Below are positions 3,456 to 32,106 of a stretch of 64,000 bases of DNA, in pieces. Below the pieces are notes generated by a model, which did no database searches, had not been told where the DNA came from, and worked only from the letters and a program-made list of their open reading frames with translations. The position numbers and the translations under genes are program-made. Source of the stretch: Desulfobulbaceae bacterium (lineage in GTDB: Bacteria > Desulfobacterota > Desulfobulbia > Desulfobulbales > Desulfocapsaceae); contig WSXV01000005.1 in NCBI GenBank assembly GCA_009773475.1, positions 1 to 64,000 of the forward strand. The letters are read 5' to 3'. Numbering within the stretch: position 1 is the first letter of the stretch; each line of letters opens with the position of its first letter.

Positions 3456-4382
<927 letters not shown>

Positions 4383-4440: not shown

Positions 4441-4797
4441 ATGTTGACCATGATAAGAGCAATCGTTCGACCGGAAAAAGCAGACAAGATCCTCTCGTCC
4501 CTTATGGATGCCGGGTTCCCTTCCGTCACGAAATATGCAGTTGCCGGCCGTGGCAAACAACGCGGTATCAAGATCGGCGATGTTACCTATGATGAGATTC
4601 CAAAGGTCATGCTGATGTGCGTGATCAACCCTGCGGACAAGGAATTTGTCCTCAATACGATTATGGGTGCCGCCAAGTCTGGAATTAAAGGGGCTTTTGG
4701 CGATGGCAAAATATTTGTCAGCGATGTGGAAGAGGCTTACACCATTAGCTCTGGTGTCAAGGAGACGGCATTTGAAACCGAGAGGGGGCCGGTATGA
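4441..4797 (+). CDS. nifI1: nitrogen regulatory PII-like protein NifI1
   Basis: This 118-residue GlnB-family protein is of the NifI1 (GlnBI) subgroup, which lies between nifH and nifD in archaea and in many anaerobic bacteria. Known NifI1/NifI2 complexes switch nitrogenase off after ammonium addition by binding the MoFe protein and are relieved by 2-oxoglutarate. The sequence shows the PII core (MIRAIVRPEKADKILSSLMD near the N-terminus, GDGKIFVS near the end). Its T-loop lacks the classical uridylylated tyrosine context. A strong ribosome site (AAAGGAGAG) precedes the ATG. Its stop overlaps the next start by four bases (ATGA). Confidence 0.95.
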   Translation: MLTMIRAIVRPEKADKILSSLMDAGFPSVTKYAVAGRGKQRGIKIGDVTYDEIPKVMLMCVINPADKEFVLNTIMGAAKSGIKGAFGDGKIFVSDVEEAYTISSGVKETAFETERGPV

Positions 4798-5168
4798 AAG
4801 AGGTGATCGCCATTGTGCGTATAAACATGATGAACCAGACCAAACAGGCCCTCACCGATGCTGGAATTGATGCTTTTTTTGCCCATGAGGCCCATGGCCG
4901 GGGCAAGGGGTTTGTCAATCTCCATGTTCTTGAGGGAGCGAATCAAGGCTATGAGGAGGCTGCGTCCATTTTGGGTGAAAAGGGCAAACTCTATGGCAAA
5001 CGGGTGGTGACGGTGGTGGTTAAGGATGAGCAAGTGCAGGATGTTGTGGCTGCCATCATCAGCGTGAATCAGAGCGGTAAGCCCGGTGACGGCAAGATCT
5101 TTATCCTGCCCCTGGCCGATGCGGTGCGGGTGCGTACGGGAGAGACGGGACAAAAAGCCATTATCTAA
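4794..5168 (+). CDS. nifI2: nitrogen regulatory PII-like protein NifI2
   Basis: This second PII-like subunit (124 residues) overlaps nifI1 by four bases, implying translational coupling and assembly as a pair. The PII fold is visible (VIAIVRINMMNQTKQALTDA at the start, GDGKIFILPLADAVRVRTGE at the end), with the longer T-loop region typical of NifI2. Together with NifI1 it should provide post-translational ammonium switch-off of nitrogenase, which fits the absence of the DraT/DraG system from this window. Confidence 0.95.
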   Translation: MKEVIAIVRINMMNQTKQALTDAGIDAFFAHEAHGRGKGFVNLHVLEGANQGYEEAASILGEKGKLYGKRVVTVVVKDEQVQDVVAAIISVNQSGKPGDGKIFILPLADAVRVRTGETGQKAII

Positions 5169-5319: not shown

Positions 5320-5392
5320 CCGCTGCGAAAGAAATATTTTGAGCAACACACAGTCGAAGCGGTTCCTAATACGTACAATAAGGAGGAAGGAA

Positions 5393-7033
5393 ATGGCAAT
5401 ATCAACCCTGAAAAAAATAGCGCCGGATGATCCGGCTCATATCAAGGCCGAGCTGCTGGCCAAGTACCCGTCCAAGGTGGCCCGCAAGCGATCCAAGCAG
5501 ATTATGATCAATGAGGCCCTGGAGAATACTACGCCGGAGATTATGGCGAACGTCCGGACGACTCCCGGTATTATCACCATGCGTGGTTGTAGTTATGCCG
5601 GTTGTAAGGGCGTTATCATGGGGCCGACCCGCGATGTTGTCAACCTGGTGCACGGCCCTATCGGATGTAGCTTCTACGCCTGGTTGACACGTCGGAACCA
5701 GACCAATGCCGGGACTGATGGCGCCAACTATATAAACTACTGCTTCAGCACCGATATGCAGGATTCGGATATTATCTTTGGCGGGGAGAAAAAACTGGAG
5801 GCCGCTATCCAAGAAGCCTATGACCTTTTCCACCCTCGATCCATTGCCATTTTTGCGACCTGTCCCGTGGGTCTGATCGGTGATGATATTCATACCGTGG
5901 CCAGAAGGATGAAGGAAAAATTCGGTGACTGTAATGTTCTGGCCTTTTCCTGCGAAGGGTACAAGGGTGTGTCTCAGTCAGCTGGACATCATATTGCCAA
6001 TAATCAGATCTTCCGCCACATTGTGGGCGAGAATGATGAGGTCAAACCCGGCAAATACAAGATCAACCTGCTGGGTGAGTACAATATCGGTGGTGACGGG
6101 TTTGAGATTGACCGAATTCTTAAGAAGTGCGGGATCACCAATATCTCCACCTTCTCAGGAAACTCCACCTACGATCAGTTTGCCTCGTGTCATACCGCTG
6201 ATCTGAACGCGGTCATGTGTCACCGCTCGATCAACTACGTGGCCGATATGCTCGAGACTAAATACGGAATTCCCTGGGTGAAGGTGAATTTTATCGGCGC
6301 CGAGGCTACTGCCAAGTCATTGCGCAAGATTGCCGGTTATTTTGGCGAAAAGGAACTCATCGACCAGGTGGAAGCCGTCATTGCCGAGGAGATGCCTAAT
6401 GTTGAGACTGCCCTGGCTGATGTCCTGCCCCGTACTACGGGCAAGACGGCCATGATGTTTCTCGGCGGTTCGCGAGCCCATCATTATCAGGAGCTGTTTA
6501 AGGAAATGGGAATGAAGGTTATTGCCGCCGGTTACGAGTTTGCCCATCGCGATGACTATGAGGGACGGCATGTTATTCCGGATCTCAAGGTGGATGCTGA
6601 TAGTAGAAATATCGAGGAGATAGTGGTCTATCGCGACGAGGATAAGTTCAAGGCGCGCAAGACTGCGGAAGAGATGAAGGCGCTGGAAGACTCCGGGTAT
6701 AAGTTCAAGGAGTATGAAGGCATGGTTCCGGAAATGGAGAAAGGCACCCTGATTATTGATGATCTCAATCAGTATGAGGCGGAAAAGTTGGTGGAACTGA
6801 TGAAACCGGATCTCTTCTGCGGCGGAATTAAAGAGAAGTATTCCATTCAGAAGCTGGGTGTGCCCATGAAGCAGCTCCACAGCTATGACTCCGGCGGTCC
6901 TTATGCCGGGTTCAAGGGCGCGATTAATTTCTACTATGAGATTGACCGTCTGGTAAACAGCAGGGTCTGGAGCTATATGAAGGCCCCATGGCAGGATAAT
7001 CCCCAGCTTTCAGCTACATACGGCTGGGAATAA
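5393..7033 (+). CDS. nifD: nitrogenase MoFe protein alpha chain
   Basis: NifD carries the FeMo-cofactor and half of the P-cluster ligands. Seen in the 546 residues are P-cluster cysteines C66, C92 and C157, the cofactor ligand C276 (in CHRSINY) and the cofactor histidine H496 (in LHSYDSGG). At about 384-450 it has the extra segment found in group II/III alpha chains, which explains the length compared with about 490 residues in Azotobacter. The cofactor environment and the presence of nifE, nifN and nifV point to the molybdenum enzyme, not Vnf or Anf, and no vnfG/anfG gene is present. The start at 5393 has AGGAGG seven bases upstream; an in-frame TTG at 5339 was rejected. Confidence 0.97.
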   Translation: MAISTLKKIAPDDPAHIKAELLAKYPSKVARKRSKQIMINEALENTTPEIMANVRTTPGIITMRGCSYAGCKGVIMGPTRDVVNLVHGPIGCSFYAWLTRRNQTNAGTDGANYINYCFSTDMQDSDIIFGGEKKLEAAIQEAYDLFHPRSIAIFATCPVGLIGDDIHTVARRMKEKFGDCNVLAFSCEGYKGVSQSAGHHIANNQIFRHIVGENDEVKPGKYKINLLGEYNIGGDGFEIDRILKKCGITNISTFSGNSTYDQFASCHTADLNAVMCHRSINYVADMLETKYGIPWVKVNFIGAEATAKSLRKIAGYFGEKELIDQVEAVIAEEMPNVETALADVLPRTTGKTAMMFLGGSRAHHYQELFKEMGMKVIAAGYEFAHRDDYEGRHVIPDLKVDADSRNIEEIVVYRDEDKFKARKTAEEMKALEDSGYKFKEYEGMVPEMEKGTLIIDDLNQYEAEKLVELMKPDLFCGGIKEKYSIQKLGVPMKQLHSYDSGGPYAGFKGAINFYYEIDRLVNSRVWSYMKAPWQDNPQLSATYGWE

Positions 7034-7087
7034 GATGGCCTGGCCATCGTAGAAATCAATCTTTTTACGCAATTTTTGAGGTTTATC

Positions 7088-8461
7088 ATGCTATTACGAC
7101 ACACACCCAAAGAAATCACAGAGCGCAGCGCCTTGATGATCAATCCGGCCAAGACCTGCCAGCCCATTGGCGCCATGTATGCGGCACTGGGCATCCACGG
7201 CTGTCTGCCGCACAGTCACGGTTCCCAGGGCTGCTGCGCCTACCATCGCAGCGCCTTGACCCGGCATTATAAAGAACCGGTTTCCGCATCTACCAGCTCC
7301 TTCACGGAAGGTTCATCGGTGTTCGGTGGGCAGGCCAATATGCTTCAGGCCATTGAAAATATCTTCGCCGTCTATAACCCGGAGATCATTGCGTGCCATA
7401 CCACCTGTCTTTCTGAGACCATCGGGGATGATCTGAAACAGATCCGTAAAAAGGCCATTACCGAGGGCAAGATTCCTGAAGGCAAGTACATGATCAGCGC
7501 CTCGACGCCCAGTTATGTTGGTTCGCATGTCACCGGATTTTCCAATATGGTCAAGTCCATGGTCGGACTTGCTGAGCCCACCGGCAAGAAAAATGGCAAG
7601 GTCAATATTATCCCCGGCTGGGTTGAGCCGTCGGATATGGAGGAGATCAAACGCCTGACCAATATGATCGGGGTAAAGACCATTATGTTTCCGGATACCT
7701 CCGGGGTATTGAATGGCCCTCTGTCTGGTGAGTATAAGATGTATCCCGATGGCGGGGTAACCGTGGCGGAACTGCAGTCTACCGGCGATTCCATCGGCAC
7801 CCTGGCCTTAGGAGAATGGTGCTCTGCCGACGCCGCCCGTGAGCTTGATGTCAAGCACAAGGTGCCCTGCCAGATCCTTGATATGCCCTTTGGACTCAAG
7901 GCCACTGATCGGTTCATTGACGCCCTGCGTATCATTGCCGGGGTCACCGTTCCCGATGAGCTGTCCATGGAGCGTGGACAGCTGGTGGACATGATCTCCG
8001 ATATGCATCAGTATGTGTATCACAAGAAGGTGGCCCTGGTGGGCGACCCGGATCAGGTCATCGCCATGACTGAGTTCCTGGTTTCCATTGATATGTGTCC
8101 CGTTCATATTGTGACCGGTACTCCAGGCAAGGCCTTTGAGCGCCGGATCAAGGAGATTACCAAGGACATGCCCTTCCCGTGCAACGTCAAGGCCAAAGGC
8201 GACATGTTCCTGCTCCATCAGTGGATCAAGAACGAACCGGTGGATCTGATCATTGGTAACACCTATTGCAAGTATATCTCCCGTGATGAGGATATCCCAT
8301 TGGTTCGCTGGGGTTTCCCCATCCTCGATCGGCAGGGGCATCAGTATTTCCCGACGGTGGGATATAAGGGGGCCTTGCGGCTTCTGGAGAAGATTTTAAA
8401 TGTTATCCAGGATCGCAAGGATCGCGATGATCCGGAATCGAAGTTTGAACTTGTCCTGTAA
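7088..8461 (+). CDS. nifK: nitrogenase MoFe protein beta chain
   Basis: NifK pairs with NifD and supplies the other P-cluster ligands. C24, C49 and C107 occupy the ligand positions (KTCQP, SQGCC, TTCLSE). At 457 residues it has the short N-terminus typical of group II/III beta chains. It starts 54 bases after nifD; the ATG at 7088 is preceded by GAGG and is preferred over an in-frame TTG at 7076. It belongs to the nifHI1I2DK transcription unit. A strong GC-rich hairpin follows its stop codon. Confidence 0.97.
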   Translation: MLLRHTPKEITERSALMINPAKTCQPIGAMYAALGIHGCLPHSHGSQGCCAYHRSALTRHYKEPVSASTSSFTEGSSVFGGQANMLQAIENIFAVYNPEIIACHTTCLSETIGDDLKQIRKKAITEGKIPEGKYMISASTPSYVGSHVTGFSNMVKSMVGLAEPTGKKNGKVNIIPGWVEPSDMEEIKRLTNMIGVKTIMFPDTSGVLNGPLSGEYKMYPDGGVTVAELQSTGDSIGTLALGEWCSADAARELDVKHKVPCQILDMPFGLKATDRFIDALRIIAGVTVPDELSMERGQLVDMISDMHQYVYHKKVALVGDPDQVIAMTEFLVSIDMCPVHIVTGTPGKAFERRIKEITKDMPFPCNVKAKGDMFLLHQWIKNEPVDLIIGNTYCKYISRDEDIPLVRWGFPILDRQGHQYFPTVGYKGALRLLEKILNVIQDRKDRDDPESKFELVL

Positions 8462-8486: not shown

Positions 8487-8515
8487 CCCCTTCCCCGCCC
8501 ATGGCGGGGAAGGGG
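8487..8515 (+). promoter_or_regulatory. strong hairpin after nifK
   Basis: A perfect 13-bp inverted repeat (8487-8499 with 8503-8515, arm CCCCTTCCCCGCC) closes a 3-base loop. No run of T follows, so it is not a normal intrinsic terminator. It may stabilise the 3' end of nifHDK mRNA after processing, or lower expression of the downstream accessory genes. Confidence 0.7.
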
Positions 8516-8558: not shown

Positions 8559-9842
8559 GTGGCCGGCGCTTTTTCTTTGCCGTTGTTTTGCACTGTGCAC
8601 CGTTCTCGTCTTGAGCCTGGGGTCTGTACACCTTATGTTTATCAACCATCAACTCCTGCAGATAAAATGACACCTCTTGCCACAACCAAATGTACCTGCT
8701 CTTCAACCCCCCATTCTCCGCAAGGACGATGGCTGGAATTGCCGGTGGCGTCGCGCGCCAATAATCGTATTCGATTTGCCGCAACCGGTGAGTCCCTCCA
8801 GGCCATGAGTCCCGTGGAGGCGCTGGCCTGGTTGGCTGAGACTGTTGACAAGGGGGCAGCCCTGGACGGAGTGACCCTTGCCGGGCCTGGTGATCCGCTG
8901 GCTGATCTCGGGCCGACCCTTGAAGTTCTGAGTCTGATTCGGGCAAAATATCCTGAAATGGAATTGGGGATAACCACCCTGGGGCTGGGGGCGGAACAGG
9001 CCGCCGAGGCGCTTCTCAAGGCCGGTGTCAGTCGGGTGACTCTTCTCGTGGATGGGATTGACCTGGATGTCATCCGCAAGCTGTATGCCTGGATTCGCCC
9101 AGGATACCGAACGGTTCCTCTGCCTGCTGCCACCGAAATGCTCCTCAGTGAGCAGGTCATGGCGATGAAGGCTTTTGTTGGCAACGGATGTAGTGTGGGG
9201 ATCAGAACCACCATTTACCCTGGCTATAATGACGCCCATGCCGAGGATATCGCTCGGATTATGGGGTCTCTGGGGGCGGAATTTATGGCCGTGGCCTCCT
9301 ATGTCCCGGTGGAAGGCGAAGAGGCCCTCCTTGAGCGCCCGACTCCGGAGATGATGGCGACGATTCATGCCCAGGTGTCAAAACATCTGCGCCTGATCGT
9401 GGTTCCGGAGACGATCACAGCGCATGCCCAAAACTGTTCCGAATGTGGCTGCCAGTCACCGGCTACGTTCCAGCCAAAACCCAGCACTGGACGCCCCAAT
9501 GTGGCGGTGGTCAGCTCTGGGGGGATGGAGGTCGATCTCCATCTTGGCCATGCCGCAAAGGCCTTGATTTATGGGCCCAGAGAGGATGGTCTTACCTGTC
9601 TGCTCGAGACCAGGAGCCTGCCGGAGCCGGGTTTTGGATCGGCCCGCTGGGAATTGTTGGCAGATATTCTGAAAGATTGTTTTGTCCTTCTGGCGGCCAG
9701 TGCGGGCGAGAGCCCTAAAAAGATTCTGGCCGATCGGGGAATCCGGGTTTTGATTACCGATGATGATATCGCCGGCATTGTCGATGTCCTCTATGGTGGG
9801 GGAAAGAAAGGGAGTCAGTGCCGCAAGGGAAAAGCTGCTTAA
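8559..9842 (+). CDS. NifB-like protein lacking the radical-SAM cysteines, fused to NifX domain
   Basis: The 427-residue protein aligns by eye with the true NifB at 25312 along its length: LPVA then the cluster site, AGPGDPLAD (NifB AGPGDPFAN), the central barrel, PGYNDAHAED (NifB SGVNDHHVEE) and a C-terminal NifX-type domain (about 313-415). At the radical-SAM site all three cysteines of CxxxCxxC are replaced (A67, I71, A74), so SAM chemistry through a normal cluster looks impossible. The NifB STNG segment reads TTLG. At the place of the NifB HCKRCRADA motif it keeps NCSECGC (C293, C296, C298), so it might still bind an Fe-S unit. The start is uncertain: GTG 8559 or ATG 8667, neither with a strong ribosome site. 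I infer a scaffold or carrier for cofactor precursors, expressed with the structural genes. Confidence 0.85.
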   Translation: MAGAFSLPLFCTVHRSRLEPGVCTPYVYQPSTPADKMTPLATTKCTCSSTPHSPQGRWLELPVASRANNRIRFAATGESLQAMSPVEALAWLAETVDKGAALDGVTLAGPGDPLADLGPTLEVLSLIRAKYPEMELGITTLGLGAEQAAEALLKAGVSRVTLLVDGIDLDVIRKLYAWIRPGYRTVPLPAATEMLLSEQVMAMKAFVGNGCSVGIRTTIYPGYNDAHAEDIARIMGSLGAEFMAVASYVPVEGEEALLERPTPEMMATIHAQVSKHLRLIVVPETITAHAQNCSECGCQSPATFQPKPSTGRPNVAVVSSGGMEVDLHLGHAAKALIYGPREDGLTCLLETRSLPEPGFGSARWELLADILKDCFVLLAASAGESPKKILADRGIRVLITDDDIAGIVDVLYGGGKKGSQCRKGKAA

Positions 9843-9883
9843 TCAACGTAATATTATAACATTTTGAAGTGAAAGGAGAAGAA

Positions 9884-10186
9884 ATGGCAATTCCAGAGCG
9901 ACTCATTCTTGTATGTCAGAGTTTTAGGGTGGCAGGCGATAAAAAGGGCATCTGTCATAAGCAGACCGATGGGTTTCTCCAGTATCTGGAAGAAGAGATC
10001 CTTGATCGTGGCCTTGATTGTCTTGTTGCCGCCACCACCTGTTTGAAACGATGCGATTCCGGGCCGATCCTGGTGGTTCAGCCGGATAACTTGTGGTTCA
10101 AAGGGGTGGATAGCCATGAGGCCATCGATGCAATTCTCGATGGCCTGGAAGATGGCGCCCCGCCAGCCGACTATCTGATAGACTGA
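9884..10186 (+). CDS. thioredoxin-like 2Fe-2S ferredoxin
   Basis: The 100-residue protein shows the cysteine pattern of the Clostridium pasteurianum-type 2Fe-2S ferredoxin: C11, C24, C53 and C57, followed by SGPILVVQPDNLWFKGV. That ferredoxin family has a thioredoxin fold, and the clostridial member is known to associate with the nitrogenase MoFe protein. A redox role next to nitrogenase is therefore plausible, though not necessarily as the main electron donor to NifH. The start at 9884 has AAAGGAG at good spacing. It lies 41 bases after the NifB-like gene and 16 before the acetyltransferase, so the three are probably cotranscribed. Confidence 0.85.
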   Translation: MAIPERLILVCQSFRVAGDKKGICHKQTDGFLQYLEEEILDRGLDCLVAATTCLKRCDSGPILVVQPDNLWFKGVDSHEAIDAILDGLEDGAPPADYLID

Positions 10187-10202: not shown

Positions 10203-10664
10203 ATGGTCATCATTCGCCCGGCCCGACTTGCGGATATTGAAAGCCTGGTCGAGCTTTTGCAGATGCTCTTTGAGCTGGAGCAGGATTTTGAGGGCAACCC
10301 CTCTCGCCAGCAGCAAGGGCTGCGCATGATGCTGGACAACCCCAATGGCTGTGTGCTGGTGGCCCAGGGGGATGGGCAGGTGATTGGTATGTGTTCCGGC
10401 CAACTGCTGATTTCCACTGCAGAAGGCGGTCCTGCCCTATTGGTTGAAGATGTCGTTGTTTGTGAATCATGGCGTGGGCGCGGGGTTGGACGTCTGCTGA
10501 TGGAGGCGCTCAGTGCCTGGGCTAGAGATAAAAAGGTCAATCGTTTACAGCTTCTGGCCGATCGGAGCAACATGGCGGCGCTGGAATTTTACCGCTGTCT
10601 GGGCTGGCAGGGCACGGAGCTTATCTGCCTGCGCAGCTGTATTGGTGACGAGGCTTGCAGGTGA
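10203..10664 (+). CDS. GNAT-family N-acetyltransferase
   Basis: This 153-residue single-domain protein has the GNAT acetyl-CoA-binding motif (VVVCESWRGRGVGRLLMEAL, with the RGxGxG pattern) and the C-terminal NMAALEFYRCLGWQ element. The substrate is not predictable from sequence. Its position, tightly packed between the ferredoxin and an 80-residue unknown gene behind nifK, suggests a role connected with nitrogen fixation, for example modification of a nif protein. That is inference. Confidence 0.85.
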   Translation: MVIIRPARLADIESLVELLQMLFELEQDFEGNPSRQQQGLRMMLDNPNGCVLVAQGDGQVIGMCSGQLLISTAEGGPALLVEDVVVCESWRGRGVGRLLMEALSAWARDKKVNRLQLLADRSNMAALEFYRCLGWQGTELICLRSCIGDEACR

Positions 10665-12809: not shown

Positions 12810-14009
12810 TTATTGCAACCTGATCCTGCTGAGCACGGGGCGTAACCCGGCTGCGACTGGGCCGGGGGGTACAGTGGAGCTCATTTTCAGGCCGACCACA
12901 ATCTCTTTTCCGCTGAGAATAAGAAGATTGCTGCCACTACTCAGGGTGAGCATGGTGTATTGCTGTCCACCCATTCCCATTGACTCTTGAAGCTGCTGGC
13001 TGACAACAGAGATATAGGTGATGAAATTCGATATCTGGGCATCAGCTGTCTTCGCAGCATATACCAGATTCCCCTCTTTTGAGACGAGAATGGAATTGCT
13101 GATTTCAGGCATTGCGCTCAGCATGGTGATAAATTGCTGCAAGATTGGATTGGCTGTATGAGCCGACGATGTCGTGGTGGAAGAAGATGTTGTCAGTGCC
13201 TCAGCTGGTCGAGAGGAAGCGGGCGGGAGAGTCTTCTCATCCATTTGGAGGAAATGGTCAGAGCCCAGGTCCACGGAGCTCAGGTCGATGGAATCAAGAG
13301 AGTTGGCAGCAGTCTGGGGTGCCGAAGTGGTGGGTGATGCGTTTTGTTCATCTTGCCTTCTGCTCCCCTCCAGCAGAATAAATCCAAGAGATTTGTGGAT
13401 TTCTGGTTTTGTAATTGCGCAGGAGTTGTCCAGCACAATATCTACATTTTTCCAGCTGATGATGGTAAAGGCGGCATCTTCTCCAGAGAGGTCGTCAGTG
13501 TTGGCATCCAGGAGATCACCGTTTCTAAAATACAGAGTCCCCTGATGCTTTCCAGAGCGAACCGTGACGGTGCATGTTTTCTTGTCCAGTTGCAGCAATT
13601 GGAGCAATGAACTCAGAGAAACTCCAGTGATGAATCCTTTGGAGCGGCCTTCAAGTCCCTTCAGGATCTTGGAGACCAGTAAGTTGAAGTCAATAGGTTT
13701 TTCTATGTATTGTAATGCTTTGATTTTTTTTAGGTTTTCTTCAATATCCGGTGTGCCGAAGGCAGTCATGACAATGACGGGGATCTCAGGATGGTGGGAG
13801 CTGAGGTGGGCGACCAGTGCAAAGCCGTCCATCTTGGGCATTTTCAGGTCAGTAAGCACCAGATGGATCTCCTGCTTATCGAGGATGTCGACCGCCTGTT
13901 CGCCATTATGGGCGGTGATAATGCCAAATTGATCTTCGTAAGACTTAAATCCATCAATCAGGCTGAGCAAAAAACTTTCATCATCGTCAACAATAAGAAC
14001 GGTATTCAT
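12810..14009 (-). CDS. response regulator with PATAN and roadblock domains
   Basis: The 399-residue protein has three domains. Residues 1-120 are a receiver (VLIVDDDES acidic pocket, LVLTDLKMPKMDG with the phospho-accepting aspartate, VMTAFG, EKPID lysine). Residues about 128-230 are a PATAN/DUF4388 domain (SLSSLLQLLQLDKKTCTVTV). A Ser/Thr-rich linker leads to a C-terminal roadblock/LC7-like domain at about 295-395. No DNA-binding domain is present, so output is by protein contacts. The start at 14009 has GGGGAGTC upstream. The gene follows the histidine kinase by 181 bases on the same strand and is its probable target. Confidence 0.85.
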   Translation of the reverse strand: MNTVLIVDDDESFLLSLIDGFKSYEDQFGIITAHNGEQAVDILDKQEIHLVLTDLKMPKMDGFALVAHLSSHHPEIPVIVMTAFGTPDIEENLKKIKALQYIEKPIDFNLLVSKILKGLEGRSKGFITGVSLSSLLQLLQLDKKTCTVTVRSGKHQGTLYFRNGDLLDANTDDLSGEDAAFTIISWKNVDIVLDNSCAITKPEIHKSLGFILLEGSRRQDEQNASPTTSAPQTAANSLDSIDLSSVDLGSDHFLQMDEKTLPPASSRPAEALTTSSSTTTSSAHTANPILQQFITMLSAMPEISNSILVSKEGNLVYAAKTADAQISNFITYISVVSQQLQESMGMGGQQYTMLTLSSGSNLLILSGKEIVVGLKMSSTVPPGPVAAGLRPVLSRIRLQ

Positions 14010-14190
14010 AGTGACTCCCCTGCCGGCTTCTGCCGGATGATAAATGTGACAGTTCTTCAAGTGAATAGGAAAAGACAGTTCTCTTTCGTGGTAAACAGCT
14101 TATTTGAGGAGATTTTATTTGATGCTCTATGTAAATTGGGCTCATTTTCTTCTTCTACCATGCGTCGTTGGCTTGTGTCCAGAAAAACTG

Positions 14191-16455
14191 TCACGGGCCG
14201 GGGACAACAATAAGAACTGTGGTTCCCATGTTGTTTTTACTGCGGATATCGATGGAGCAATTCATTTTGGAGAGCATTTTTTTGACAATAACCAGGCCCA
14301 GTCCTGTCCCCTGTGGTTTTGTGGTATAAAAAGGCTTAAAAAGATTGGCCTGCTCATGGTCACTGATGCCGCAGCCATTGTCGCCAATAATGATATTGAT
14401 CTGGCCATTTTCTTGGTGGAGCATGGCCAGAGAAATATTTTTTTGTAAGGTTTCGGTAAGGGAATCGGCCGCATTGGCGATCAGGTTGAGCAGTACTTGC
14501 TGGAAAGCACGGGGGTCGATCATGCCGATGTGTGGTTCTGTAGGGATATTAGTGGTCAACTGGATCTCTTTTTGTTTGAGTTCTGTCGCGATCAGAGTAA
14601 GAAATTTGTTGAACAGCGCTGTCATGTCGGTTTTTTCGATGATTGGGCGTTCGAATGTGCTGAAATTTTTGAGTGTTTTGAGCAGATATTCAACGCGACC
14701 AATATCTGAAAGGCCACGATTGATAAAACGTTTGATATCGATTTTGTCATAAAGTTCGAGGTTGGAATCGAGAACCGAGAGAGAGACCTTGATCGAATTG
14801 ATCGGGTTGCCCAGTTCATGACGAATGCTGGAGAAAATAAATCCGATATTGTCCATGAGGTTTACGGCCTCGGCAATGGATTCCAATCGCTTCTTTTCTG
14901 TGATATTACGTTTGACGATCACCTGGTGGGTAACGCCTCCCGAGGGATTGAGGGCGGGTGAGATGAGCATTTCTTCTTCGTAGAGGGTGTGATCTTTGCG
15001 ATAATTGGCAAATTGTCCCTGCCATCTTTCTCCTTTCTCCATCGCCATTGTGAGCTCTTTCCAGGTACTGCTGTTTCTGACGTTTTCAGGATAGAGGGCT
15101 TTGATGGGTGTGTTGATGATTTCCGATTGTGCATAGCCGGTGATGTTTTCACAAGCAGGATTGGCGTAGAGAATGTGGCCTGCAGGATCGGTGACGAGAG
15201 TGCAGTCGCTTGATTGTTCTACAACGCTTGCAAGGCGGTCCCTTTCGGAGCAATCTTGTTGGTTGCGGATGGTCATGGCCAGGATGTTGGCAATTAATTT
15301 TAATCCCTGGATCTGTTGCTCGTTAAACGGAGTTGCTTTTGTCAGTCTATCCATGCCGATGATTCCCCAGAGCTCATTCTTTAATAAGATCGGGATATCG
15401 AGAAAGGCCTGAATTCCGAGTTCATTGAGCCCCTTTCGTTCCTGTTCTGAAATATGAGGGGACTGGCTGTTGATAATATGGCCGTCTTTTAGGAGGGCAA
15501 CGCAATCGGGGTTGTTAAAGACCCAGCTATGTTCAATGGTTGCCTGATATATTTTTTGCTGCCTGGCTGCTTGCCTGGCGTTATCTTCGGCTTCGACAAT
15601 GAAGATGCGGTCACTTTCCAGGGGTTGGCAAAGGGCGGCAAGCTTGCCGCTGAAACAGTTTTGCCAGCTGTTTTGGAGATGAGATTGGTCGGTGATGGTC
15701 AGAATGGTGTTCCATAGGGTCTCATTGTGGATCAGTTGGGACGTATTTTTTTGATCGGTGAATTTTTGTAATTGTTCCTTGAAGTGACTAAGGAAGTTGA
15801 GGGCTGAAGGATTTTGTGATCTTGCAAGGGAGTTCCTTTGGAGCCTGGTATCGAGCTTATGAGGTGGACGCTGGGTGTGGAGGCCTCTGCGGGTGGCTGT
15901 ACGGAGTGTTCTCGAATAAAAACAGATTAAGCTCACCTGCAATAATGTGAGTGCAAGCAGGCTATAGGCAAGGGGGCTCATGTAGGCAGGCGCCTTGAAA
16001 AAGAGGATGAAGAGTATGGGCGCAAGGCCAATGGCGAGAATACAATAAGCCATTACCGGCAGAGCTGCGAGGTAGGTACTGAAGAGGGCGCAGATACAAA
16101 AGAGAAAGAGGCTATGTATGGCATAGACCAGCAGGGTGCCGTTTGTGATAAGCAGAACGCTGCTTCCCCAACAGAGAGCCAGCAGCAGCGAGAGGAGACA
16201 CAACAGGCGACAGGTCTTGCTGATCTTCAGTGTTGGTACTTGACCGGCGTGAGCAATCAAGAAAATGGCATAAAGTGAAAGGCCGCTATAGCAGACGATT
16301 CCGAATAACAGAAGAGTTTTTGGAAGTGCTTCCCATAAAATGATCGTATCCATAAAGACAGCCGCGAGGGCTGCCAGCAGGATATGAGGACCATAAAGAT
16401 AAAGAGCTCGGAGGTCGTTTTGAAAAAAGCCGCTAGATCCGGAGATGGGTATCAT
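14191..16455 (-). CDS. membrane sensor histidine kinase with GAF and PAS domains
   Basis: The 754-residue kinase has an N-terminal membrane region of about six segments (residues 25-190), a GAF domain (about 260-395), a PAS domain with PAC tail (about 405-525), a dimerisation helix with the phospho-accepting histidine (SIRHELGNPINSIKVSL) and an HATPase domain (GDNGCGISDHE, PFYTTKPQGTGLGL). It probably senses a membrane or cytoplasmic small-molecule signal and passes phosphate to the PATAN response regulator downstream. The signal cannot be told from sequence. Confidence 0.88.
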   Translation of the reverse strand: MIPISGSSGFFQNDLRALYLYGPHILLAALAAVFMDTIILWEALPKTLLLFGIVCYSGLSLYAIFLIAHAGQVPTLKISKTCRLLCLLSLLLALCWGSSVLLITNGTLLVYAIHSLFLFCICALFSTYLAALPVMAYCILAIGLAPILFILFFKAPAYMSPLAYSLLALTLLQVSLICFYSRTLRTATRRGLHTQRPPHKLDTRLQRNSLARSQNPSALNFLSHFKEQLQKFTDQKNTSQLIHNETLWNTILTITDQSHLQNSWQNCFSGKLAALCQPLESDRIFIVEAEDNARQAARQQKIYQATIEHSWVFNNPDCVALLKDGHIINSQSPHISEQERKGLNELGIQAFLDIPILLKNELWGIIGMDRLTKATPFNEQQIQGLKLIANILAMTIRNQQDCSERDRLASVVEQSSDCTLVTDPAGHILYANPACENITGYAQSEIINTPIKALYPENVRNSSTWKELTMAMEKGERWQGQFANYRKDHTLYEEEMLISPALNPSGGVTHQVIVKRNITEKKRLESIAEAVNLMDNIGFIFSSIRHELGNPINSIKVSLSVLDSNLELYDKIDIKRFINRGLSDIGRVEYLLKTLKNFSTFERPIIEKTDMTALFNKFLTLIATELKQKEIQLTTNIPTEPHIGMIDPRAFQQVLLNLIANAADSLTETLQKNISLAMLHQENGQINIIIGDNGCGISDHEQANLFKPFYTTKPQGTGLGLVIVKKMLSKMNCSIDIRSKNNMGTTVLIVVPGP

Positions 16456-18964: not shown

Positions 18965-19717
18965 TTAAATGCTGACGGAATGAAATTGCAGAAAATTCTT
19001 CATCAGCATGGTGCCTCCGCCCTGGGAGACAATTGCCTTGATTTTTCCCGGCTGCAGAACATGCGCCCCGCTGAACTGGGTGATTCGAGTGCCTGCAAAG
19101 GCCTCCGGACAGAGCGGGGTTGAGGGTCCCAGTAAAACAGCGGCGCGGCTGTTTTGCATGGCGGCAAGGAGGGCGTCAATGGTCTTGTTGATGATGCTGG
19201 TGGCGGTGATGATGGCAACATCGCACCGAGCTAGGGCGCTGAAGTCCTGTCGGGTGTTAAGAATGCCAAGGTTGCCTGGTTTGCCGGGATCAAGCTCGAT
19301 GATTTCAAGGCGGCAGCCGGTCTTTTTAATGCGTTGCTCAATCGGGGCAAAATGGCCGATCATCACCACATGTTCGCCGGCTTGCAGTTTCAGCAGGGAG
19401 ATTGCCTCGTCATCGACAAAATTGCGGCTGACCTTGCTGTTCAGGGCATTGAAGGTGGCCAGGCCAACGGCCCGTTCCAGCATGGTGTCACTGTTCAGCC
19501 AGGACAGGGATTCTTTGGCGGCAAGCCCCAGCAGGCCGCCGGCATGGCTGAGATGGGTGCAAGAGCCGGTCGGACTGCGGCTGGGCGTCCAGGCCACTCC
19601 CATGCCGCCGTTATCGAGCTCGACACAGCTGTATCCCAGTCCAATCCGCACGTCACTGATAGTCGAGTCCCCGCACAGTGGTTCGGCAAATCCTGTCAAC
19701 TTTTCTGCAATATTCAT
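18965..19717 (-). CDS. DUF4213/DUF364 putative metal-chelation protein
   Basis: This 250-residue soluble protein has an N-terminal DUF4213 part (VRIGLGYSCVELDNGGMGVA) and a C-terminal Rossmann-like DUF364 part (VVMIGHFAPIEQRIKKTGCR, SATSIINKTIDALLA-type segments, LLGPSTPLCPEAF). Members are annotated as putative heavy-metal chelation proteins and often lie near metal-transport genes. Proven function is lacking. Its closeness to nitrogenase genes could hint at Mo or Fe handling, but no transporter is adjacent. A good ribosome site (AAGGGAT) precedes the ATG. Confidence 0.8.
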   Translation of the reverse strand: MNIAEKLTGFAEPLCGDSTISDVRIGLGYSCVELDNGGMGVAWTPSRSPTGSCTHLSHAGGLLGLAAKESLSWLNSDTMLERAVGLATFNALNSKVSRNFVDDEAISLLKLQAGEHVVMIGHFAPIEQRIKKTGCRLEIIELDPGKPGNLGILNTRQDFSALARCDVAIITATSIINKTIDALLAAMQNSRAAVLLGPSTPLCPEAFAGTRITQFSGAHVLQPGKIKAIVSQGGGTMLMKNFLQFHSVSI

Positions 19718-22156: not shown

Positions 22157-22294
22157 TCTATTGCTGTAACCAGCATGGCCCATACCCGACTACGAAAGAG
22201 AAAGATGGTTTGGTGCTTGTGCTGCGCGGGGCGGGTTTATCGATCAACTTACAGAAGCCCCATCACACCTTTGGAAGAAAGAAGGAGACCAACC

Positions 22295-23623
22295 ATGGAA
22301 GGAATGCTTGCAGATCGACAGGATCAGGTTCATCGTACCGGTGAACAGCCTTTTACCCTGGTGTGTAATAAAGACAGTCTGGCCGGGGCGGTGAGTCAGC
22401 GGGCTTGCGTCTTCTGCGGATCGCGGGTGGTGCTCTATCCCATTGCCGATGCCCTGCATCTGGTGCATGGACCCATTGGCTGCGCGGTGTACACCTGGGA
22501 TATCCGGGGGTCCCTTTCCTCCGGCTCCGAGCTTTTCCGGCTTTCTTTTTCCACCGATCTGCAGGAGATTGACGTCATCTTCGGTGGTGAGGAAAAACTC
22601 TATCGGGCCCTGATTGAACTGATTGATCGCCACAGTCCCAAGGCGGCCTTTATCTATTCCACCTGTATTGTCGGGATTATCGGCGATGACCTGGAGGCGG
22701 TTTGCCGGCGGGTGGAGGCGGAGAAGGGGATTCCGGTGATCCCGGTGATGTCGGAGGGGTTCAAGGGCAACAAGCGGGCCGGGTACACCGCCGCCTGCAA
22801 TGCCATGGCCCGGCTTATCGGCACCGGTGATACTGCCGGCATCTCGCCCTATTCGATCAATATCCTGGGGGATTTTAATCTTGCCGGGGAGATCTGGATT
22901 ATCCGTAAATACTTCGAGCGGATGGGCGTGGAGGTGGTGGCCAATATCACCGGCGACGGCAGGGTTGATGATCTAAAACGGGCCCACGGGGCCGCCCTCA
23001 ATGTAGTTCAGTGTTCCGGTTCCACCATGGATCTGGCAAAGATCATGGAAGAGAAATACAACATTCCTTCCATTCGGGTCTCCTATTTCGGAGTCGATGA
23101 TATGGCTCAGTCCCTCTATGACGTGGCCAATCACTTTGGCGACAAGGAGATGCTGGAGAAAACAAAAAAGATTGTCCAGGAAGAATTGACCCGGATCATG
23201 CCGCAGTTGCAGATCTATAAAAAAGCCCTGGCCGGCAAGAAAGCCGCCATCTATGTGGGCGGCTCGTTCAAAGCCTTTTCCCTGGTCAAGGCCTTTCGCC
23301 TGATTGATATGCAGGTGGTGATGGTGGGGTCGCAGACCGGAACCGAGCAGGAGTACCGGGAGCTTGCCGAGATCACCGATCCCGGCACGATCATCGTGGA
23401 TGATACCAATCCCCTTGAGTTGAGTTCATTTCTTGAGGAGAAAGAGGTTGATATCCTGGTGGGCGGGGTGAAGGAACGACCCATTGCCTACAAGCTCGGG
23501 GTCGCCTTCTGTGATCATAACCATGAGCGCAAAGAGGCCCTGGCCGGTTTTGAGGGGATGCTCAACTTTGCCAGGGAGGTCTATTCCTCGGTGATGAGTC
23601 CGGTGTGGCGGATCAAGAAATAG
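22295..23623 (+). CDS. nifE: FeMo-cofactor scaffold protein NifE
   Basis: NifE with NifN forms the NifEN scaffold on which the NifB product matures into FeMo-cofactor. The 442 residues show the NifD-like core with cluster cysteines (RACVFCGSR, GPIGCAVY, YSTCIVGIIGDD) and the cofactor-site cysteine in VVQCSGST. It lacks the histidine cofactor ligand context of NifD, which supports NifE and not a second NifD. The start at 22295 has GAAGGAG six bases upstream. It is first in nifENB, behind the sigma-54 promoter at 22141. Confidence 0.95.
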   Translation: MEGMLADRQDQVHRTGEQPFTLVCNKDSLAGAVSQRACVFCGSRVVLYPIADALHLVHGPIGCAVYTWDIRGSLSSGSELFRLSFSTDLQEIDVIFGGEEKLYRALIELIDRHSPKAAFIYSTCIVGIIGDDLEAVCRRVEAEKGIPVIPVMSEGFKGNKRAGYTAACNAMARLIGTGDTAGISPYSINILGDFNLAGEIWIIRKYFERMGVEVVANITGDGRVDDLKRAHGAALNVVQCSGSTMDLAKIMEEKYNIPSIRVSYFGVDDMAQSLYDVANHFGDKEMLEKTKKIVQEELTRIMPQLQIYKKALAGKKAAIYVGGSFKAFSLVKAFRLIDMQVVMVGSQTGTEQEYRELAEITDPGTIIVDDTNPLELSSFLEEKEVDILVGGVKERPIAYKLGVAFCDHNHERKEALAGFEGMLNFAREVYSSVMSPVWRIKK

Positions 23624-23722
23624 AGGGCAGGGGTTGGAGCCGGGTTGGGGAAATCCTTCATCCCCTGGTTGAGAACAGGTACCACAACGCAAGTTTTTTA
23701 ATCGTTTCCAATGGAGATTGCC

Positions 23723-25078
23723 ATGTCCAAGAAAGCACCGAATTATATCTCCACCACCAACGCCTGCAAGCTGTGCACTCCGCTTGGGGCCTGTCTGGCC
23801 TTCAAGGGGATCGAGGGCGCTGTTCCCTATCTGCATGGATCCCAGGGCTGTGCCACCTATATGCGACGGTATATCATCAGCCATTATAACGAGCCCATTG
23901 ATATTGCCTCCTCGTCGCTTTCAGAGAAGAATGCCATCTATGGAGGCGGCCCTAATCTCAAGCTGGGGTTGGTGAATGTAACCCAGAAGTATCAGCCGAA
24001 ACTGATCGGCATCGCCACCACCTGCCTCACTGAGACCATCGGCGACGATGTGGGCCGCTATCTCAACGAATTTATGCGAGAGACCGAAGGCACCATGCCG
24101 ATCATGGTGCGGGTCTCCACGCCCAGCTACAACGGCACCCATATGGAGGGATTCCATGCCGCCGTCACATCGGTGGTGGATCAGCTGGCAGAAGGCGGGG
24201 AGACTATGGCCGGCAATATCAACCTGCTGCCCGGCTTTATCTCGCCGGCGGACAAACGCTACCTCTCTGAAATCCTCAATGATTTTAAATTGGACTCAAC
24301 GATCCTGCCCGACCTCTCCGACACCATGGATGGCCCGGCGGGCACGAGCTACAAGGAAATTCAGCCGGGCGGCACGCCCATCGCTTCCATCACCAGCATG
24401 GGCCGAGCGACTGCGACCATTGAATTTGGGCGCACAATCGGCGAGAAGAGCGGCGGGGCGGTGCTTGCCAATAAATACGGGGTGAAGCGCATCGTCCTTG
24501 GCACTCCCATCGGCATTGCCGAAACGGATGCCTTCTTTGCCGCCTTGAGCAGTCTCAGCGGCAACCCTGTGCCCCAGAAGCATGCCATGGAGCGGGGTCG
24601 GCTGTTGGACAGTTATATCGACTGTCATAAGTATGTTTTTGGTAAAAAGGCCATTATTTATGGGGAAGAGGATCAGGTGGTGGGACTAACCGCCTTCCTC
24701 GCCGAGATCGGGATCGTGCCCGTGCTCTGTGCCTCCGGGGGTAAGAGCGGCAAGCTGGCGGCGGCGATCCGGGACGTGACCGGTGATATTCTGGCCGAGC
24801 AGCCGCAGGTCTTTGAGGGCATGGATTTTTTTGATATCAGCGAGATGGCCGAAGGGCTGGCCCCGGATCTGCTGGTGGGGCATTCCAAGGGGTACCCCCT
24901 GGCCCGGAAGATGATTATTCCTCTGATCCGGGTGGGGTTTCCCATCCATGACCGGATGGGTGGGCAGCGGATCCTCCACCTTGGCTATCGTGGTGCTCAG
25001 GCTCTTTTTGATCAGGTGGTCAATGCCATCCTGGCCAAGAAGCAGGATGACTCTTCGGTGGGTTACAGTTATATGTAG
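23723..25078 (+). CDS. nifN: FeMo-cofactor scaffold protein NifN
   Basis: This 451-residue NifK-like partner of NifE has NACKLCTPLGAC and HGSQGCATYMRRY near the N-terminus and TTCLTETIGDD further on. It is the second half of the NifEN scaffold. The ATG at 23723 is chosen because TGGAG lies seven bases upstream; an ATG 12 bases earlier lacks a ribosome site. It is not fused to NifB, unlike in some relatives, and is separated from it by a 233-base gap that contains a palindromic repeat. Confidence 0.95.
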   Translation: MSKKAPNYISTTNACKLCTPLGACLAFKGIEGAVPYLHGSQGCATYMRRYIISHYNEPIDIASSSLSEKNAIYGGGPNLKLGLVNVTQKYQPKLIGIATTCLTETIGDDVGRYLNEFMRETEGTMPIMVRVSTPSYNGTHMEGFHAAVTSVVDQLAEGGETMAGNINLLPGFISPADKRYLSEILNDFKLDSTILPDLSDTMDGPAGTSYKEIQPGGTPIASITSMGRATATIEFGRTIGEKSGGAVLANKYGVKRIVLGTPIGIAETDAFFAALSSLSGNPVPQKHAMERGRLLDSYIDCHKYVFGKKAIIYGEEDQVVGLTAFLAEIGIVPVLCASGGKSGKLAAAIRDVTGDILAEQPQVFEGMDFFDISEMAEGLAPDLLVGHSKGYPLARKMIIPLIRVGFPIHDRMGGQRILHLGYRGAQALFDQVVNAILAKKQDDSSVGYSYM

Positions 25079-25311: not shown

Positions 25312-26577
25312 ATGGCCATAGATTATACTCGGCATCCCTGTTTCAATCCCAAAGTACAGGGCCAGTTCGGCAGAGTCCATCTGCCTGTGGCTCCAAAATG
25401 CAACATCAAATGCAACTATTGCAACCGCAAGTATGACTGTGTCAACGAGTCCCGGCCAGGGGTCACCTCCACCATTCTTTCGCCGGAGCAGGCCCTGGTC
25501 TATATGGAAAAGGTGCTCATCGCCGAGCCGCGCATCAGTGTGGCAGGCATTGCCGGCCCTGGCGATCCTTTCGCCAACCCCGATGAGACCCTTGGCACCA
25601 TGCAGCTGTTGCGCAAAAACTATCCGGATCTGATTCTCTGTCTGTCCACCAATGGTATGGGCTTATACCCCTATATCGATGAGGTGGCCGAGATTGGAGT
25701 ATCCCATGTGACCGTGACCGTGAACGGTATTGATCCTCAGATCACCAAGAATATTTATAGCTGGGTCTCGGATGGGAAGATTGTCTATCAAGGGGTGCAG
25801 GCGGCCGAGCTGTTGCTTGCCCGGCAGTTGAGGGCCATTGAAAAGCTTAAAAAATGCGGGGTGACGGTCAAGGTGAATTTTATCGTGGTGTCGGGAGTGA
25901 ACGATCACCATGTGGAAGAGACGGCCCAGTTTATGGCCGGGATGGGAGTGGATCTCTTCAACTGCATGGCCTTGTTGCCAACGGAAGACACCCTGTTTGC
26001 CAATGTCGTTGAGCCTGATAAAGAGACCATGGCCCGTCTGCGGGGAGCAGGGGAAAAGTATCTGCCGCAGATGCGTCACTGTAAGCGTTGCCGTGCCGAT
26101 GCGGTGGGGCTCCTCGGAGCTGATCGCTCCGGTGAGATGGCCGGCTGCCTGAACGCCTGCGCCTCCTTGCCGGTCCGTCCGGCCAACGAGCGTCCCTATG
26201 TGGCTGTGGCCAGCATGGAAGGGATGCTTGTGAACCAGCATCTGGGCGAGACCACCCGTTTTATGATCTGGGAAAAGGTCGACGACACCTTCCGGATGGT
26301 TGAAGAACGCCCTGCGCCCATGCCTGGCAGCGGAATCGGCCGGTGGCAGGCCCTGACCCGCGTGCTCTCTGACTGCCGGGCCGTTCTGGCCAGTGATATG
26401 GGCGATAGCCCCCGGGAGATCCTGCAAAAACAGGGGATAGAGCCAATCTGCATGTCAGGTCTTATTGAAATGGGGCTCAAGGCGATTTACAGCGGCGAAG
26501 GCCTTTCCAAGCTGAAACGACGGGAAAAAAAGGCCTGCGGGACTCATTGCCAGGGAACCGGGACCGGATGTGGTTGA
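25312..26577 (+). CDS. nifB: FeMo-cofactor biosynthesis radical-SAM protein NifB with NifX domain
   Basis: NifB builds the 8Fe-9S-C precursor of FeMo-cofactor using SAM. The 421 residues have the radical-SAM motif C30-x3-C34-x2-C37 (KCNIKCNYC), AGPGDPFAN, LCLSTNG and RHCKRCRADAVG with its cluster cysteines. A C-terminal NifX-like domain follows (about 295-400), a common arrangement outside the Azotobacter type. The tail is Cys-rich (CGTHCQGTGTGCG). AAGGAG precedes the ATG. It is the intact counterpart of the cysteine-less copy at 8559, which makes that one more striking. Confidence 0.96.
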   Translation: MAIDYTRHPCFNPKVQGQFGRVHLPVAPKCNIKCNYCNRKYDCVNESRPGVTSTILSPEQALVYMEKVLIAEPRISVAGIAGPGDPFANPDETLGTMQLLRKNYPDLILCLSTNGMGLYPYIDEVAEIGVSHVTVTVNGIDPQITKNIYSWVSDGKIVYQGVQAAELLLARQLRAIEKLKKCGVTVKVNFIVVSGVNDHHVEETAQFMAGMGVDLFNCMALLPTEDTLFANVVEPDKETMARLRGAGEKYLPQMRHCKRCRADAVGLLGADRSGEMAGCLNACASLPVRPANERPYVAVASMEGMLVNQHLGETTRFMIWEKVDDTFRMVEERPAPMPGSGIGRWQALTRVLSDCRAVLASDMGDSPREILQKQGIEPICMSGLIEMGLKAIYSGEGLSKLKRREKKACGTHCQGTGTGCG

Positions 26578-30975: not shown

Positions 30976-32106
30976 TCATCGAGTGGTCAACTTCACCAGC
31001 TCTGGATTGCTGAGGCCCTGGGCGGGCAGGTCGGGCATGGTGCGCAGGTGCTCGGTGAGAGCGTCCGCCATGCTGTCATCAACCGGATGGCCAAGGGCGG
31101 CGAGGTGGTTGACAAGGGCCCGTTTGCCGCTCTTAGAGCCAAAGAGCAGGGCCCGGGTGGCCCCGACCTTGTCCGGCGGATAGGGCTCGTAGGTGTCGGG
31201 GTTGACGGTCAGGCCATGCAGGTGCAGGCCGGTTTCACAGGTGAAGATGGCCGAGCCGACGATGGGATGATTGCCGGCGATGGTGAGCCCTGCTGCCTTG
31301 CTGATGGTCTGGCAGAGCCTGGAGAGAAGGCTGATCTGATAATGTTCTTTTCCTTTCTGCAGGCAGAGAAAGGCCGCGGCCTCTTCCAGGCGGCAGTTGC
31401 CGGCCCGCTCTCCCAGGCCAAGGACGGTGGCGTCAATGGTCGATGCCCCGGCATCGAGGGCGGCAATGGCGTTGGCGGTGGCCATGCCGAAATCATTGTG
31501 GGTGTGAACGCCGCAGGGAAGTCCTGACTGCCGGCGGATCATCTGGACTAGCGAGGTGATGGAGGCCGGAGAGGCAATTCCCACGGTGTCGGCCAGCCGC
31601 AGGCGCTGCACGCCGCAGCCGGCTGCTGTATTGGCCAGCTGGCAGAGGAAGGCGGGATCGGCCCGGGTGGCGTCTTCCAGTCCCAGGGAGAGAAAGGGAA
31701 TCCCGGCACCCCTGGCCATCGCCACGGCGGTTTGCAGGGTGTCCAGGATCCATGTGCGGTTTTTGCGCAGACGTTCGCTGATGTGTAGATCGGAGGCCGG
31801 GATTGACAGCGAGAGGACGTCGGGCCGACAGCTGGCGGCAAAGGCGATATCCTCCTCAAGACACCGGCACCACAGTCCCAACTGCTGCTGCGTTCCTGAT
31901 TTCGCAATGATGTCACGAGCCAGGGTGAAAAGCTCCGGCAGATGGTCGTTTTTTTCGGAGGCGATTCCCAGCTCAATCTCTTCTATCCCTACCTGGCAGA
32001 GCTGCTCAATGATGGCAGAGCGATCTCCCTGGCTGAAACGAACTCCCGGCGTCTGTTCGCCTTCGCGAAGGGTGGAGTCGATGATGATGGAGGTATGGGT
32101 GGTCAT
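30976..32106 (-). CDS. nifV: homocitrate synthase
   Basis: NifV condenses acetyl-CoA with 2-oxoglutarate to give homocitrate, the organic ligand of FeMo-cofactor. The 376 residues show the DRE-TIM metallolyase motifs: DSTLREGEQTPGV at the start, GVHTHNDFGMATANAIAA for metal binding, and GLGERAGNCRLEEA. The absence of a leucine-type regulatory domain and the nif context separate it from isopropylmalate synthase. It is third in a minus-strand run nifA - unknown - nifV, 47 bases after the unknown gene. Confidence 0.93.
   Translation of the reverse strand: MTTHTSIIIDSTLREGEQTPGVRFSQGDRSAIIEQLCQVGIEEIELGIASEKNDHLPELFTLARDIIAKSGTQQQLGLWCRCLEEDIAFAASCRPDVLSLSIPASDLHISERLRKNRTWILDTLQTAVAMARGAGIPFLSLGLEDATRADPAFLCQLANTAAGCGVQRLRLADTVGIASPASITSLVQMIRRQSGLPCGVHTHNDFGMATANAIAALDAGASTIDATVLGLGERAGNCRLEEAAAFLCLQKGKEHYQISLLSRLCQTISKAAGLTIAGNHPIVGSAIFTCETGLHLHGLTVNPDTYEPYPPDKVGATRALLFGSKSGKRALVNHLAALGHPVDDSMADALTEHLRTMPDLPAQGLSNPELVKLTTR

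Follow-up and report, generated by a model that had tools for sequence, protein, structure and literature searches.

The gene nifY comes after nifHDKT in nitrogenase clusters. NafY and NifY are described as binding the cofactor-free MoFe protein, from which they are released upon cofactor insertion, and NifX and NafY as carrying NifB-co and FeMo-co (PMC13128457, PMC6016461). How these cofactors pass among NifB, NifEN and NifDK is an active question, and a structure of the NifEN–NifX hand-over, in which H35 of NifX ligates NifB-co, appeared in 2026 (PMC13128457). According to the same paper, NifY is without the cofactor histidine, and deletion of NifX alone leaves diazotrophic growth of A. vinelandii unaffected (PMC13128457). 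As for NifB, its ligand positions have been described for the proteins MaNifB, MtNifB and MthNifB (PMC6053413, PMC7145814, PMC9692996), and these are the positions we compare below.

The subject of this article is a cysteine-less paralogue of NifB, which we call Bx. A survey of 2017 by Arragain et al. had come across ‘NifB’ sequences of a similar sort. It left out 28% of 390 NifB sequences, most of them without Cx3Cx2C and all with a NifX domain, and its authors took the excluded ones as probably mis-annotated NifX (PMC5715403). These sequences resemble Bx in being annotated NifB, in having a NifX domain and in lacking Cx3Cx2C; in the parts of the survey that we draw on, however, they are not described as a conserved barrel-containing family, and they may include members of Bx (PMC5715403). 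Nor did we find such a family, barrel-containing and Cys-less, described in the portion of the open-access literature that we covered. The first-pass annotation of this DNA had proposed Bx as the best candidate for an undescribed nif component. Within that literature this holds for the family, but the existence of Cys-less ‘NifB’ had been noticed.

The window is the whole stretch of DNA analysed, 64,000 nucleotides from a genome of 3.03 Mb (26 contigs, 91% complete); its features are collected in Table 1. Bx lies in an open reading frame at 8559-9842 (+) that is present and intact, as first annotated. We prefer ATG 8667 as its start; judged by sequence, GTG 8559 (a 427-aa reading) is less likely. 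The ATG is better because a methionine stands at the same point in seven alignment rows (the window and close relatives), and because the equivalent of 8559-8666 contains an in-frame stop in three of four translated relatives (L004 and L005, two close relatives of the window, and L008, one further relative; not L035). This start leaves 205 bases after the end of nifK. The N-terminal part of Bx is NifB-like by profile, and its barrel matches structures 7bi7, 7jma, 7jmb and 6y1x by sequence. In Pfam, Radical_SAM falls just under threshold (28.9 bits, cut-off 29.5) and Nitro_FeMo-Co, the NifX domain (PF02579), passes (26.8 bits, cut-off 26.3); at E 0.001 Pfam finds nothing besides these two, and no sterile-alpha-motif domain, and PHROGs gives no match to Bx. 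On the NCBIfam nifB model TIGR01290 (cut-off 343.65) Bx scores 111 bits and the frame at 25312 scores 386. With every cysteine motif present, the latter is the true nifB it had been taken for. The two window proteins are 28.7% identical. A search of their genome with the Bx protein (E 0.001) hits two places only, Bx itself and nifB at 25312; two further NifX-domain (PF02579) frames, of 165 and 133 aa, lie on other contigs, away from nif.

Table 1. Features of the Bx locus and its surroundings, in window positions
Feature	Position	Strand	Basis or remark
nifH	3492..4382	+	NCBIfam
nifI1 + nifI2 (PII-type), ORFs 4441-4797 and 4794-5168	4441..5168	+	by place, against the pair of genes annotated P-II on the Nitratidesulfovibrio RCH1 plasmid
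nifD	5339..7033	+	NCBIfam
nifK	7076..8461	+	NCBIfam
Perfect 13-bp hairpin with 3-nt loop, between nifK and Bx	8487..8515	+	one place in own genome
Bx	8667..9842	+	391 aa; NifB-like barrel ~23-243, NifX-like domain ~276-377
RANNRIRFA, replacing NifB KCNIKCNYC at the radical-SAM cluster site	8754..8780	+	alignment
GPGD, residues 73-76, kept from NifB	8883..8894	+	alignment
CSECGC linker cysteines, residues 257-262, lineage-specific	9435..9452	+	alignment
NifX-like domain of Bx	9492..9797	+	Pfam, profile search
His292 codon, aligned with NifX H35 (NifB-co ligand)	9540..9542	+	alignment to 9ian chain E, 1p90
[2Fe-2S] ferredoxin, C. pasteurianum / Shethna I kind, probably starting at ATG 9884	9869..10186	+	sub-cut-off NF041612, NF041613
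GNAT acetyltransferase	10203..10664	+	Pfam; same order in relatives
nifE	22175..23623	+	NCBIfam
nifN	23711..25078	+	best match NifEN model; nifN 288.6 bits (cut-off 326.8)
True nifB, all cysteine motifs	25312..26577	+	NCBIfam, alignment
nifV-like homocitrate synthase	30979..32106	-	TIGR02660 337.6 bits, under cut-off 462.9

Bx shares with NifB the order of its domains, a barrel (by sequence), GPGD and a NifX-like domain. What sets it apart is that NifB has Cx3Cx2C, ExRP, TxTxN, Cx2CRxDAxG and HPC, and that Bx scores far under the nifB model cut-off. We aligned 57 NifB rows with 103 of Bx (107 found, 102 after removal of duplicates in the central stretch, plus the window; near-copies remain among the 103). 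All 57 NifB rows have cysteines at C30, C34, C37, C43, C110, C257 and C260; at the same places cysteine occurs in 0, 0, 7, 0, 7, 1 and 3 of the Bx rows. The radical-SAM triad is gone altogether from 96 of the 103 and reduced to one cysteine, always the third, in the other 7; none has two or more, and CxxxCxxC occurs nowhere in any of them. The first-pass reading, which relatives retaining the three cysteines would have refuted, thus withstands that test in the rows aligned. In the window the three are replaced just as had been reported (A67, I71 and A74 of the 427-aa reading, which are A31, I35 and A38 of the 391-aa protein). The loss of the triad is, on these alignments, not chance.

The ligands of the K clusters have fared little better. 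The K1 histidine, which is His43 of MaNifB (PMC7145814), is a histidine in 16/103 Bx rows against 57/57 for NifB, and a glutamate in the window. Of the HPC motif, a K ligand, the His column is H in 2/103; its Cys column is C in 54/103, at a point where the leader aligns with some uncertainty. The ExRP loop is missing, with E46, R48 and P49 gapped in 102/103 rows and the switch cysteine C43 in none. TxTxN has gone too: the middle T column reads L in 66 rows and Q in 19, and the N column D in 76, E in 15 and N in 9. Cx2CRxDAxG, which supplies K2 ligands, has its two cysteines in 1/103 and 3/103. Having lost the radical-SAM ligands and nearly all those of K1 and K2, Bx cannot make NifB-co by the known reaction.

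Could Bx be an enzyme all the same, built around another metal site made from new cysteines? The first-pass annotation had pointed to CSECGC, and it is indeed there, in the linker, at the place of HCKRCRADA in NifB. But CSxCGC occurs in just 3 of 103 Bx rows, those of the window and of the two relatives closest to it, and 29 rows have no linker cysteine at all, so we rejected it as a family-wide new cluster site. A second candidate, a CX0-2C pair within the 40 residues before the LPVA motif, is found in 34/103 rows (part of this stretch may lie ahead of the real start codon) and was likewise rejected as a family trait; 33/103 have no cysteine anywhere in those 40 residues. We regard a new metal site as highly improbable.

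A simpler thought is that Bx is a decaying, functionless copy of nifB, since its catalytic residues are gone and the gene is missing in some relatives. We rejected it. Among 12 near relatives dN/dS is 0.10-0.26 (Nei-Gojobori; the 53 of 66 pairs with dS at most 1.5), the aligned proteins are without internal stops (the ‘*’ in three rows lies past the C terminus), and the gene keeps its place across families. The selection result contradicts this explanation, and we give it next to no credence.

What has been kept is as telling as what has been lost. The first-pass reading that the window protein retains AGPGDP, barrel and NifX domain was borne out. Across the family the G, P, G and D columns of AGPGD hold these residues in 102, 102, 103 and 99 of 103 rows, with the leading A varying, and W142, R144, Q163 and N188 join GPGD as the near-invariant residues of the barrel. 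In the NifX domain H292, R316, R327, W328, D337 and C338 are present in all or nearly all rows. His292 is there in 103/103 Bx and 57/57 NifB rows. Profile search with the NifX domain aligns it with H35 of NifX (9ian chain E, counted from an alignment start at 21) and with a histidine of 1p90 (E 7.4e-4 and 5.1e-5), the latter presumably the NafY core (its record is titled hypothetical protein). Bx has signatures of its own in this region, YGPR-x-DGL and, just after, a basic GGGKK. Of the positions conserved only in Bx, 20 lie from residue 245 on and 7 in the barrel.

The weight of constraint differs between the two proteins. For the 23 loci with both genes on one stretch, mean pairwise identity in NifB is 0.641 for the barrel and 0.576 for the NifX domain; in Bx it is 0.389 and 0.578. 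Taking NifB, the barrel is better conserved than the NifX domain in 92.1% of 253 genome pairs; taking Bx, this is so in 0.4%. Positions conserved in at least 95% of rows number 50/221 in the barrel and 17/101 in the NifX domain of NifB, against 13/210 and 29/102 in Bx. dN is lower in the NifX domain than in the barrel in 53/53 Bx pairs. All these pair figures, dN/dS included, are descriptive, since pairs are not independent. The Bx barrel is still under purifying selection.

Two further readings of the protein can be weighed here. A ligand sensor or regulator, whose barrel mouth would bind SAM, homocitrate, molybdate or another anion and signal to nitrogenase or its assembly, would make sense of the nearly invariant GPGD and the basic RIRF at the cluster loop (R34 in 91/103, R36 in 86/103). 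A barrel identity of 39% between relatives against 64% in NifB, and one relative that does without the barrel (see below), make it very unlikely to our minds. A cofactor store or trap for surplus NifB-co or FeMo-co, for example during NifI switch-off and with no defined acceptor, would suit the NifX domain with its histidine, the Bx-specific GGGKK and the co-located nifI1 and nifI2; the purifying selection on a second domain suggests a partner instead, and we think a store distinctly unlikely.

Bx is a family, and many sulfate-reducer-type bacteria have it behind their nitrogenase genes. In the window’s order, Desulfobulbales, 131 of 193 genomes have a Bx protein match, and 117 of these, as read from the listed scores, are Bx carriers; the other 14 have a NifB-level or weaker match only (G004, G009, G010, G025, G028, G046, G057, G060, G068, G071, G080, G102, G117 and G181). 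Searches genome by genome were made within the phylum, where 113/395 match at 1e-20, among them 8 Bx genomes of the order and 9 outside it. The nine belong to three families (G463, G243, G381, G501, G358 and G206 to one, G231 and G478 to a second, G543 to a third), and their Bx proteins are likewise without the radical-SAM triad. A contig scan with exact-peptide patterns of the window protein gave 11 loci, titled Desulfobulbaceae, Desulfocapsa, Desulfobacterales or Deltaproteobacteria; the nearest relatives by sequence are in records titled Desulfobulbaceae and Desulfocapsa (89% identity). Seven nif loci of the order are without Bx behind nifK (L179, L181, L182, L183, L207, L208, L213), and L179 is Bx-free, yet another genome of the same genus has Bx. 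The gene is thus neither universal nor essential.

Plasmids gave 223 matching records, all under 60% identity (34.2% in the first row). The three best are D. vulgaris plasmids; in the two that we examined the match is nifB, and there is no Bx behind nifK. Most of the 27 further rows among the best 30 of 223 are annotated nifB. On the Nitratidesulfovibrio vulgaris RCH1 plasmid (L177 10001-11476) the match to nifB is split in two, and the PLSDB gene table, which is incomplete, lists only a NifX-domain CDS there; the DP4 plasmid of D. vulgaris has one long CDS, and there nifB adjoins a gene (L178 10817-12100) whose annotation is antiviral reverse transcriptase Drt2.

The surroundings of Bx are very regular, the typical layout being nifH-nifI1-nifI2-nifD-nifK-Bx-ferredoxin-GNAT. 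We looked at 96 loci, from 88 of the 117 Bx genomes (those fetched with flanks) and 8 genomes outside the order, each with about 8 kb either side of Bx, less at contig ends; the window’s own locus is additional. Where there was room to see, nifK lies directly upstream in 88/94, the ferredoxin directly downstream in 91/93 (it is farther off in L104 and L155), and the GNAT gene within 3.5 kb in 65/77. The hairpin between nifK and Bx may separate the mRNA levels of the two genes. Five loci (L124, L129, L134, L135, L139) have the Bx-ferredoxin-GNAT block with no adjoining nifK, the latter lying elsewhere in the genome; in L113 a distance of 5 kb separates Bx from the nifK upstream. The ferredoxin gene is single copy in each of ten genomes searched, these six included. 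Since the block can stand apart from nifHDK, Bx, ferredoxin and GNAT may be one functional module. In 41 nif loci picked for the absence of Bx, the seven of the order among them, the ferredoxin is the next marker after nifK in 20 and GNAT is downstream in 6. Bx therefore looks like an accessory gene inserted into, or lost from, a common layout, and the GNAT is not strictly tied to it.

Some neighbors deserve a mention in their own right. For the GNAT at 10203-10664 and its relatives, nitrogenase or its regulators are possible targets. The DNA that separates the two nif blocks holds a DUF364/DUF4213 putative heavy-metal chelation protein (18968-19717, minus strand) and, at 12813-16455 (minus strand), a response regulator with DUF4388 and a PAS/GAF histidine kinase, the kinase having a sub-cut-off NifL match across its PAS domain.

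One might expect a pseudoenzyme to work on its parent, tuning, stabilising or unloading NifB, with its own NifX domain receiving NifB-co. The two have the same fold by sequence, NifB shares 22 of the 31 barrel positions with a conservation of 85% or more in Bx, and at least two matches are found in 113/117 Bx genomes of the order, the second presumably NifB. Bx, however, keeps company with nifHDK and the ferredoxin, nifB being within the fetched stretch in only 24/96 loci, and the barrel, through which one would expect the two to pair, is the less constrained domain. We consider a partner of NifB unlikely, and a form of the gene with no barrel counts against it too.

That form is in G102 (L180 5387-5821), where a 145-codon frame (stop to stop) between nifK and the ferredoxin encodes only a short leader and the NifX domain, in which the histidine is kept. 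It comes from a single genome (85% complete, 90 contigs), the frame is open and an assembly error is possible; taken at face value it points to the NifX domain as the important part. Two genomes of the order also have a short stand-alone NifX-domain ORF close to nifB (L153 15389-15748, L159 9061-9495), and there are further short NifX-domain matches in L168, L206 and L216. On origins, a tree against NifB (a quick method, with 59/103 Bx and 48/57 NifB rows chosen by an identity filter) divides the two along a single branch (length 0.95, full SH-aLRT support). L158 and L165 have very long Bx branches, and the NifB of G231 groups with that of a D. vulgaris plasmid. The split fits a single origin of Bx by duplication; the tree is unrooted and gives no direction.

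What, then, does Bx do? It fits neither the definition of NifB nor the domain make-up of NafY, and by inference it works like NifX and NafY. NafY is, like Bx, a two-domain protein with a C-terminal NifX-like domain and a cofactor histidine, although its N-terminal domain, as described, is a sterile-alpha-motif where Bx has the NifB barrel. NifX has the domain with the aligned histidine and is small and barrel-less (158 aa in 9ian), in contrast to Bx; at the Bx site G102 offers a natural form with no barrel. nifY, too, sits behind nifK. Our favored explanation, which we believe has somewhat the better chance of being right, is that Bx is a selected, non-catalytic nitrogenase-assembly protein from a NifB–NifX ancestor that carries cofactor or precursor and may act at NifDK. 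The barrel, having lost the radical-SAM and most K1 and K2 ligands, would be retired from catalysis, and the NifX-like domain with its invariant histidine would now be the more constrained part. Beside the direct results (ligand loss, conservation, selection, synteny, domain constraint and histidine alignment), we infer that Bx would bind NifB-co or finished FeMo-co, then carry or buffer it. The retired barrel would be a second domain giving partner specificity, as the N-terminal domain of NafY does for apo-NifDK. Such a carrier is favored over a NifB partner or a regulator by the way constraint has shifted onto the NifX domain. Against our reading speaks a barrel that is still selected and keeps GPGD, W142, R144, Q163 and N188, more than a scaffold alone should need.

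Delivery at NifDK would be the less secure step. It is suggested by the position of Bx, behind nifK and beside the ferredoxin gene. The clostridial homologue of this ferredoxin, that of C. pasteurianum, is described as interacting with the MoFe protein, and for the Azotobacter homologue the account in the same source is of MoFe binding not found (PMC8561814). The link to nifK is weakened by the five Bx-ferredoxin blocks without nifK and the sixth with nifK 5 kb off. The carrier could also be redundant, given that NifB has the same NifX-like domain and that the genome has two more NifX-domain ORFs. A bolder version, which we put forward tentatively and with less expectation of its being right, is that Bx is a third kind of carrier, in which a disarmed radical-SAM barrel docks a NifX-type domain to NifDK with a dedicated [2Fe-2S] ferredoxin, widespread and overlooked in the phylum.

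Bx is probably an overlooked helper of nitrogenase assembly. There is a practical side to this: counts of nifB made by homology are at risk, the best NifB-like match to Bx in 117 of 131 genomes of the order being a protein incapable of NifB chemistry. For nitrogenase engineering Bx is a candidate accessory factor. Much of the work on cofactor transfer drawn on here concerns Azotobacter, and Bx would give a different solution in another phylum. It would be a natural separation of the catalysis of NifB from its carrier domain.
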